NCBI RefSeq assembly: GCF_030436115.1
Contig: NZ_CP129407.1
Coordinates: 62,001-126,000 of the forward strand
Direction of reading: 5' to 3'
Length of the DNA stretch: 64,000 nucleotides
Source: Borrelia sp. P9F1
GTDB lineage: Bacteria > Spirochaetota > Spirochaetia > Borreliales > Borreliaceae
The position numbers were made by a program, and so were the translations under genes. Below the pieces are notes generated by a model. It was not told the DNA's origin, ran no database searches, and saw nothing but the letters and a program-made list of their open reading frames with translations. Shown here piece by piece: positions 51,181-53,782 of this stretch (its first letter is position 1; each line of letters opens with the position of its first letter).

Positions 51181-52887
51181 CTACTCATTATCTTCTTTAG
51201 TAAGCTTATATCGCTTCCCTGTCTGCCCTCTCTTCTCAAGCTTGTCATCCTCCTTCATTTCTACATAGGCTTTAATTCCTTGTTTCACATGATCAGACGC
51301 AACAACAACACTAGTTCTGAAAAGCTTCCTAGGTGAATAATTTTCAATAGCTTGTTTTATATAATAAACATGAGTCCCATAAGAAATTCTGATCGTATTA
51401 CCACTAGCAATAACGTTCAAAGCTCCTGTCTCACTCAGTAAATCGCAAGACACAAGCTCAGGGCTGAACACCACAAACCTTAAGTCCGTTGACACAATAT
51501 CAAACTCCTGTATGTTATCAAGACCACCCAGCCCTTGTGCTATAAGATGCGCCACCCCAATCCCTTCGACTTTTCCCTCATTGCCTCCAAAAAATGGTTC
51601 GTCAACACCAAAAAGCTGAAAATCAAAATAATTATAAAGCCATTTAAAAGTAAAATAATACAGACCAAAAAACGCAAACCCCAAGGGCAATGCATAAATC
51701 CAATTTGTTTTATCATGTCCCTGCAACATCCCAAACATAAAGAAATCAAAAAATCCAGTAGAAAACGTAGACCCAATCGCAATACCAAAAACATTGGCGA
51801 CCAATAAAGCAAGCCCTGTATAAATAGCATGTACGAAGTAAAGCAAAGGTGCTGTAAAAACAAATAAGAACTCTAAGGGCTCTGTAATTCCCATCAAAAA
51901 GGCAGTAAGAGCACCTGAGAAAAGAAGAGATGAGACCTTATTCTTTTCTTCACAAATAATCCCCCTATAAACTCCAAAAGCAGCTCCAGGCAACCCAAAC
52001 ATAATAGAAAGATAAAACCCACCCCTGTATCTGGCAATACCTGAATAAAATTCGGTAAGCCGTGAATCGGATAACTGAGCATGAAATATATTTTGAATAC
52101 CACCGATCGCTTGACCATTAATTATTTCTGTCCCCCCTAAAGAAGTAAAATTAAAAGGAAACGTAAGAATAGAATGGAGCCCTAAAGGAACTAATATCCT
52201 GTTTAACATCCCATAGAGAAAACTACCAAAGTAATCAAACCCAGAAATAAAAAGTCCACAAGAAGTAATTACCTCATCAAGATTTGGCCAAATCAAAGAG
52301 AATATCATTCCTAAAAAAATACAAAAAGGAAATACCACCACAGGAACAAACCTAGGCCCAGAAAAAAAACCAAAAGGCAATGGCAACTTAACTCCACAAA
52401 ATCTATTGTGCAAATATCCAACTAAAAGCCCAACCGATAAAGAACCAACAACGCCCGTATTTAAAGTTTGAATGCCAAGAAAATTGACTTGCCCAATAGA
52501 AGACATCAAACTGGGTTCAACAAGTTCTGAAAACATGTCAAGAAAATAATTTTCAGTCACATTAAAGATCAAATATCCAACAATTGCCGAAAGCGCAGCA
52601 GGCCCCTTTTGGACTCTCGATACGCCAACAGCAATGCCTACAACAAACAACAAAGGAATATTTAAGGTAATAGTATTGCCCACAGCTCTCACAAGACCTA
52701 AGGCACCTTGTAAAACAACATTATCGATATAAATCAAACTAGAAGGGTTTGACATAGCAGACCCAATCCCCAGCATCAAACAAGAAATCGGCAAAACAGA
52801 AATCGGTAAATTTATCGCACTCGCAAACTTCTGCAGCTTTGCAAACCCACGCACCCTTAAAAAATTTATCACTCCCTTCCTCTCCAC
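51181..52887 (-). CDS. malX: PTS glucose/maltose-type EIICB permease with altered EIIB active site
   Basis: A 568-residue sugar permease. The EIIC part (about residues 18-430) has some ten membrane segments and family motifs FPFNFTSLGGTEIINGQAIGG and GITEPLEFLFVF, the sugar-binding glutamate loop. The EIIB domain follows at about 455-520 (NIQEFD, ISYGTHVYYIKQAIENY). The usual EIIB motif is NIxxxDACxTRLR. Here it reads NIQEFDIVSTDLR, so the phosphocysteine is Val465. A charged tail of about 45 residues ends the protein. No EIIA is attached. The start at 52887 is a GTG. I infer a transport or regulatory role needing an external EIIB. Confidence 0.85.
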   Translation of the reverse strand: MERKGVINFLRVRGFAKLQKFASAINLPISVLPISCLMLGIGSAMSNPSSLIYIDNVVLQGALGLVRAVGNTITLNIPLLFVVGIAVGVSRVQKGPAALSAIVGYLIFNVTENYFLDMFSELVEPSLMSSIGQVNFLGIQTLNTGVVGSLSVGLLVGYLHNRFCGVKLPLPFGFFSGPRFVPVVVFPFCIFLGMIFSLIWPNLDEVITSCGLFISGFDYFGSFLYGMLNRILVPLGLHSILTFPFNFTSLGGTEIINGQAIGGIQNIFHAQLSDSRLTEFYSGIARYRGGFYLSIMFGLPGAAFGVYRGIICEEKNKVSSLLFSGALTAFLMGITEPLEFLFVFTAPLLYFVHAIYTGLALLVANVFGIAIGSTFSTGFFDFFMFGMLQGHDKTNWIYALPLGFAFFGLYYFTFKWLYNYFDFQLFGVDEPFFGGNEGKVEGIGVAHLIAQGLGGLDNIQEFDIVSTDLRFVVFSPELVSCDLLSETGALNVIASGNTIRISYGTHVYYIKQAIENYSPRKLFRTSVVVASDHVKQGIKAYVEMKEDDKLEKRGQTGKRYKLTKEDNE

Positions 52888-53011: not shown

Positions 53012-53782
53012 TTGAATTATATTTTTTTTGCATTAATAATGCTGTTGGGGATAGGTTTGAATTTACAAAAAATCGGAATAGAGGGTAGGTTTATGCTTCT
53101 GAAGGACAAAGATTATGGGTCATGCGTGTGTCAAGTACCCAGAAATGAGTTATTTAGTGCGTTGTCTCACTTGTTTGGAGTTGTTTTGTCGGTGATAGGG
53201 AGTACCGTTCTTATTACCCTGTCGATTGCTTCAAGAAAGCAGTTTCATGCGGCGGTGTTTTTCGCTTATGGCCTTTCGATGGTGCTTCTGTACACGATGA
53301 GCACTTTTTACCACATTTGCTTGAAGGGCAGTAGAGTGAAAGAAATATTTAGAAAGCTTGATCATATTTCCATATTTTTGTTGATAGCGGGGACTTATAC
53401 TCCGCCTTGTCTAATTCTCATGCCCAATATTTGCGGGAAGTTAATTCTTTCGACTGTTTGGGGCCTTGCCTTGTTAGGGATTGTATTCAAATCAGTGTAC
53501 GTAAACAGTCCTGGCTGGGTTAATGGATTGATATTCATACTTATGGGATGGACGATTGTGTTTGGTGTCAAGCTTATTTACAATGCACTTCCTTTGAGAG
53601 GATTTTTGTGGCTAGTGCTAGGGGGGGTTCTTTACACAATAGGGGGTGTGGTCTACGCAATAAGCAAGAAGTTTGATCCAATAGTGAGTATGAGGGTACA
53701 CGACGTCTTCCATGTTCTGATATTGCTGGGTTCTTTTTCTCACTTTTGGTTCATGCTGGGTTATGTACTACCTGTTGGTTAA
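53012..53782 (+). CDS. Hemolysin III / YqfA-family (PAQR-type) membrane protein
   Basis: The open frame is 256 residues, and the family core (about 215) begins at [21 protein letters not shown] with the first conserved histidine. Seven membrane segments follow. The ligands S..F.H and the second histidine pair are in MSTFYHIC and the C-terminal [20 protein letters not shown], which may bind a metal as in PAQR hydrolases. The frame's TTG start at 53012 is doubtful; in-frame ATG codons at 53039 and 53093 are alternatives. Its coding strand is rich in G and T, unlike most + strand genes here. It converges with rseP. Confidence 0.85.

Follow-up and report, generated by a model that had tools for sequence, protein, structure and literature searches.

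Loss of the EIIB phosphocysteine from the MalX1 PTS permease of Borrelia sensu stricto

The malX1 locus and the domains of its product

The window, that is the whole 64,000-nt stretch analysed here (Borrelia sp. P9F1, contig NZ_CP129407.1, positions 62,001 to 126,000), carries on its reverse strand malX1, an open reading frame of 568 codons as called (51181..52887) that encodes a Glc-family PTS IICB. This ORF is the orthologue of MalX1/BB0116 and lies at the BB0116 (malX-1) locus; each of the Borreliaceae genomes searched has a BB0116 orthologue at the equivalent place on its chromosome. Downstream of malX1 lie genes that we take to be rpsF, ssb, rpsR, rplI and dnaB, and upstream of it presumably a hemolysin-III-like gene, a zinc protease gene, cdsA, uppS and frr. 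The hemolysin-III-like gene, yplQ (window 53012-53782), adjoins malX1, and its B. recurrentis copy is, like that of malX1, listed as broken (PMC2525819). Against Pfam, the ORF scored 222 bits with the EIIC model PF02378, above the cut-off of 30.7, and 20.9 bits with the EIIB model PF00367, under the curated 27-bit cut-off. In NCBIfam it falls with IICBs of the GlcB/MalX type, with all scores below the equivalog cut-offs (GlcB 351 vs. 592, MalX 318 vs. 632, PtsG 272 vs. 647 bits).

Translation probably starts at codon 6 (GTG, 52872), and the called start at 52887 would then be too early, because a probable Shine-Dalgarno site (GGAGAGG, 52879..52885, reverse strand) is well spaced from this codon and codon 6 is GTG or ATG in 29 of 30 orthologues; codon 1 is variable (ATG, GTG or TTG). 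With this start, Val465 of the numbering used here becomes residue 460. The same genome has a GlvC-like IICB near 448 kb, which only five of the genomes searched possess. An rRNA operon carrying glvA/glvC is a marker of the reptile-associated Borrelia clade (PMC10481545), and from this we infer that the window belongs to a Borrelia of that clade.

The product consists of an EIIC membrane domain (residues 14-425; 51613..52848), a linker (residues 426-446; 51550..51612), an EIIB domain (residues 447-517; 51337..51549) and a C-terminal extension (residues 518-568; 51184..51336), all encoded on the reverse strand. The linker is without the KTPGRED motif of E. coli PtsG, which is missing from MalX1 in both Borrelia and Borreliella. 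The extension, with a long predicted helix at residues 519-552, is kept in both genera and has no counterpart in PtsG. The AlphaFold model had a mean pLDDT of 73.6, with most EIIB blocks at 74-88. Its EIIC domain matched the EIIC structures of E. coli PtsG and of MalT in Foldseek searches. The EIIB secondary-structure elements are present, Val465 closing the first strand next to the catalytic turn. The EIIB domain matched the E. coli EIIB structures 3bp3, 1o2f and 3bp8 at 1.1-1.2 A (TM 0.82-0.87). As modelled, the MalX1 EIIB thus still folds like E. coli EIIB, as the initial annotation had proposed; its catalytic residues are gone.

The initial annotation had also held that the EIIC sugar motifs are kept, which proved true in part. 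Nine glucose contacts of E. coli PtsG were taken from PMC11393339; five of these (Arg203, His211, Thr297, Glu298 and Phe337) are kept and four are changed. Arg230, His238, Thr335, Glu336 and Phe375 of the MalX1 sugar site are invariant, His238 (52174..52176, reverse strand) being the equivalent of PtsG His211 and Glu336 of the GITEP motif (51880..51882, reverse strand) that of Glu298. PtsG Glu202, His212, Asn215 and Lys257 are replaced in Borrelia by Asn, Ser/Thr, Thr/Ser/Ala and Ile, and in Borreliella by Asn, Ser, Ser and Ile. Since the Cys-bearing Borreliella proteins have the same or closely similar changes, those in the sugar site and in the linker are probably older than the loss of the phosphocysteine.

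Loss of the phosphocysteine and its history

The EIIB motif encoded by the ORF reads NIQEFDIVSTDLRFVV. Alignment with E. coli PtsG places Val465 (codon GTG, 51493..51495) at the phosphocysteine Cys421, Asp468 (GAC, 51484..51486) at Arg424 and Arg470 (AGG, 51478..51480) at Arg426, all on the reverse strand. The replacement of Cys by Val465 and of the first Arg by Asp, as first read from the window alone, is therefore confirmed, and it reaches further than one genome. None of the 18 Borrelia s.s. species searched has Cys at this position. Residue 465 is Val in 12 and Ile in 5 of the 17 intact orthologues, and residue 468 is D, N or Y and never Arg in all 17; the broken malX1 of B. recurrentis retains Val465 together with Asn468. 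Residue 470 has drifted, with R in 7 and K, S, M or N in 10 of the intact orthologues; it is His in the 13 Borreliella sequences aligned and Ser in Cys-bearing Aeromonas relatives. The Lyme branch has kept the catalytic residue: BB0116 has Cys, and Cys and the next Arg are retained in 18/18 Borreliella MalX1 proteins, so that the loss is confined to Borrelia s.s. With Val or Ile seen across 18 species, we rejected sequencing error, chance or a strain oddity as explanations.

Could another residue carry the phosphate, with PTS activity kept? No substitute Cys is conserved in the EIIB or the tail of the 17 intact Borrelia orthologues: Cys481 occurs in 2, Cys518 in 2, and 13 have none, so the further conserved Cys that would have spoken against the initial annotation was not found. 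His447, Ser466, Thr467 and Asp463 are the other candidates. His447 and Thr467 are indeed invariant in the 17 orthologues, but His447 is also invariant, and Thr467 nearly so, in Borreliella, which has its Cys, and because of this they look unlike replacements. Asp463 and Ser466 are variable, and the equivalents of Arg424 and Arg426 are lost or drifting. Other Cys or His residues were accordingly rejected as replacement phosphosites, the candidates being unconserved or not specific, and we regard phosphorylation of any other EIIB residue as very unlikely. Judged from its sequence, the MalX1 EIIB of Borrelia s.s. is unable to phosphorylate in the known way.

In an IICB tree, Borrelia and Borreliella were each monophyletic (support 85 and 100). 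The outgroup IICBs comprised PtsG, both MalX2 proteins, G041 and two clostridial-type relatives, and since all of these bear Cys, the residue appears ancestral and a single loss on the Borrelia stem suffices; its ancestral absence was rejected on the same ground. At loci from other bacteria, Cys was present wherever the EIIB motif was readable (L122 gave no motif), and frequent Cys-lessness among relatives was therefore rejected as a background explanation. One gammaproteobacterial IICB relative (L129) has a second EIIB-like repeat, SVEPASSRLRIGV, with Ala at the Cys position.

We then compared branch lengths on a fixed topology. On the Borrelia stem the EIIB length was 0.386 vs. 0.076 for EIIC, about 5-fold, and EIIB exceeded EIIC there in 59 of 60 column bootstraps. 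Within Borrelia the tree length was 1.64 for EIIB and 1.60 for EIIC (ratio 1.03), and within Borreliella 0.56 and 0.49 (ratio 1.14). The stem-to-crown ratio of EIIB over that of EIIC was 5.4, with a 95% range of 1.35-32 in the 60 column bootstraps. The stem excess, together with a crown ratio that is not raised, indicates that EIIB changed fast as its catalytic residues went and has been constrained since.

An EIIB that merely drifts after loss of function would behave differently, and decay of the gene is in our judgement extremely improbable. The malX1 gene of B. recurrentis is broken, as also reported (PMC2525819), but 17 of 18 Borrelia s.s. species, from across the genus, have an intact copy, and the EIIB/EIIC rate is no higher than in Borreliella. 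EIIB dN/dS (Nei-Gojobori) was 0.05-0.32, far under 1, in diverged Borrelia pairs, for some of which dS is high; very close pairs were too noisy. These values resemble those of the MalX1 EIIC and, for matching species pairs, those of the PtsG EIIB. Purifying selection thus acts on the MalX1 EIIB in Borrelia s.s. Position 465 itself flips between Val and Ile only, while its codon varies freely; as seven kinds of codon encode just these two residues, the position appears to be kept for packing rather than left to drift.

PTS partners, MalQ and the sugar kinase

If the EIIC of MalX1 still works as a PTS permease, its phosphoryl donor has to be found elsewhere, and a separate EIIB was among the options initially put forward. 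In its simple form this option fails. A Cys-bearing EIIB of the glucose family encoded on its own was not found in the window's genome; the only stand-alone EIIB of the family found, the BB0367 orthologue (L006:1471-1737; G000:C1:377844-378107), lies between an aminopeptidase gene and gpsA, in the place of BB0367, and has Asp for Cys, so it cannot supply a phosphocysteine. This protein is encoded in all 36 Borreliaceae genomes, and among 30 inspected the Cys position is Asp in 29 and Glu in one, with the following Thr-Arg retained. It is possibly a phospho-mimic or an aspartyl-phosphate carrier. BB0367 protein is made and acetylated in B. burgdorferi (PMC6127242), and its gene is upregulated in feeding nymphs (PMC9974103).

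The fused EIIBs of paralogues are consequently the only possible donors left. Five Cys-bearing paralogues are encoded in the window's genome, namely PtsG (DCCATRLR), GlvC (SNCATRLR), a NagE-like protein (DSCFTRLR), MalX2a (SACITKFR) and MalX2b (DACASRLR), and a single EIIA-Glc (PF00358, Crr), of which there is one per Borrelia genome searched, serves them all. The two MalX2-type IICBs form a tandem pair (L045; G000:C6:10535-13939) on a contig of plasmid size (25 kb), and the upstream reading SACITKFR shows Lys for the first Arg in the first of them; such a pair occurs in several Borrelia, and Borreliella mostly has a single copy. Donation from PtsG, MalX2, NagE-like or GlvC EIIB, in mixed dimers or by collision, has a precedent in the inter-subunit phosphoryl transfer reported for PTS dimers, in which the step from EIIB to sugar is less efficient across subunits (PMC6148471). 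Yet there is no hint of an adapted docking surface, Arg at 468 and a KTPGRED-type linker are lost, and a fused dead EIIB kept by selection would compete with the donor EIIB. We consider such transfer in trans unlikely.

The same genome encodes MalQ (GH77) and a ROK kinase that lacks an HTH. The ROK gene, published as xylR2 (BB0831 orthologue; L170:536-1477; G000:C1:895750-896634), encodes a protein nearest to beta-glucoside kinase/glucokinase: its top PDB match is the beta-glucoside kinase 4htl, and the NCBIfam models are BglK and glucokinase. B. recurrentis has broken copies of malX1, malQ and the ROK gene alike, while those of B. duttonii are intact. The published list of 20 impaired chromosomal genes of B. 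recurrentis, out of about 820, contains malX, malQ and xylR2 (PMC2525819), and given malX the chance of finding both malQ and the ROK gene on it is about 5e-4 if losses are random. The genes for PtsG, Crr and the stand-alone EIIB are intact in B. recurrentis. The joint decay may nevertheless reflect a general relaxation of carbon metabolism, because unrelated genes (mutS, smf, glpK) are on the impaired list as well (PMC2525819). In another Borrelia genome (G004) only a remnant of the ROK gene is left (L169:2841-3420), with malX1 and malQ intact. MalQ and the ROK kinase are also present in Borreliella, where Cys is kept, so that the pathway does not require its loss. The Cys-bearing MalX-1 appears to matter in B. 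burgdorferi, since an insertion in malX-1 resulted in intermediate infectivity (PMC3485029).

Among the three options of the initial annotation (a separate EIIB, a facilitator or a sensor), the facilitator fits best. Tentatively, and at somewhat less than even confidence, we propose that MalX1 of Borrelia s.s. is a facilitator uncoupled from the PTS that feeds free (malto)sugar to MalQ and a kinase, its EIIB being kept for a non-catalytic role. We infer that the EIIC elevator would still bind and translocate a sugar, which is probably glucose or a glucoside such as maltose; that EIIB would have lost the ability to accept phosphate from EIIA (Crr) or pass it on to the substrate by the known mechanism, leaving the sugar to enter unphosphorylated by facilitated diffusion; and that the cell, then in need of enzymes to act on maltose and to phosphorylate sugar, would process maltose with MalQ and phosphorylate the freed glucose with the ROK kinase. 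Wild-type PTS permeases are usually poor at translocation unless phosphorylating. Uncoupled PtsG mutants of E. coli, which take up unphosphorylated glucose, indicate that uptake of free sugar through a PTS permease is possible (PMC3901232). A pure facilitator has no obvious need of an EIIB, yet the domain is strictly retained, which suggests that it has an extra role beyond facilitation; it may serve IICB stability, EIIC gating or partner docking.

Partner docking is central to the idea that MalX1 is a sensor, transporting weakly or not at all, whose EIIC binds sugar and whose always-unphosphorylated EIIB is a docking platform, as with dephospho-EIIB and the ROK repressor Mlc in E. coli or SacX and SacY in B. 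subtilis. EIICB is bound by Mlc in its dephosphorylated state only (PMC3901232). The structure matches include 3bp8, the EIIB of the Mlc/EIIB complex, and the EIIB of MalX1, with its surface and fold retained, is constrained without catalysis. All Borreliaceae genomes searched also encode another ROK protein, longer than the kinase at about 406-423 aa, which by its position we take to be BB0693/BadR; it is, however, equally present in Borreliella, which keeps Cys. SacX and PtsG signal by a switch in phosphorylation that is impossible in the known way for a Cys-less EIIB, and the joint decay with malQ and the kinase gene favours metabolism over sensing. A sensor therefore seems doubtful to us. 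A broader scheme, distinctly improbable at present, would make both proteins a non-catalytic PTS arm of Borreliaceae that ties uptake to regulation, with MalX1 (Val/Ile) as a constitutively unphosphorylated transceptor and the conserved Asp-EIIB (BB0367) either relaying aspartyl phosphate or, as a permanent phospho-mimic, acting as a decoy for Crr.

Relation to known systems

PTS permeases are annotated as phosphorylating, and yet an entire genus has retained one with an EIIB that is incapable of this in the known way; MalX1 belongs to the IICB family by descent but fails the family's defining catalytic test. Our literature search found no paper on the loss of the MalX1 Cys in Borrelia. The protein has been cited, from B. 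burgdorferi, as probably phosphorylated by Crr (PMC6148471), and annotations and metabolic models holding that crr phosphorylates malX1 are transferred from the Lyme branch to Borrelia. The loss sets relapsing-fever/reptile Borrelia metabolically apart from Lyme Borreliella. It also provides a natural setting in which to ask whether the EIIC of a PTS permease can function as a facilitator and what purpose a non-catalytic EIIB serves.

Among the closest known systems, MalX-1 (BB0116) of Borreliella burgdorferi is about 61% identical and shares the locus, domain order, linker, C-terminal helix region and sugar-site residues; it differs in keeping Cys (NITKLDVCSTRLHV) and the first Arg, and has His for the second. 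E. coli PtsG (EIICB-Glc) resembles MalX1 in its EIIC and EIIB folds and in the five shared glucose contacts, but it has Cys421, Arg424, the KTPGRED linker and the contacts E202, H212, N215 and K257, and it is without the additional C-terminal helix. SacX of B. subtilis, an IIBC-type permease paralogue that regulates rather than feeds growth (PMC6148471), is a parallel to a sensing MalX1; SacX is phosphorylated at its EIIB, whereas the Borrelia MalX1 EIIB has no Cys at the usual site to be phosphorylated. In regulators such as Type-I Mga, EIIB-Gat-like domains likewise have an EIIB-like fold, a Cys reported as replaced and a non-catalytic role (PMC11537053), and the same paper doubts an earlier alignment of this domain. 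They belong to another EIIB family and are fused to a regulator, not to EIIC. The E. coli MalX protein may be a further PTS permease able to pass unphosphorylated sugar. Both MalX and uncoupled PtsG of E. coli are, however, wild-type EIIB-bearing proteins or laboratory mutants, whereas the loss of Cys from MalX1 is natural and genus-wide.
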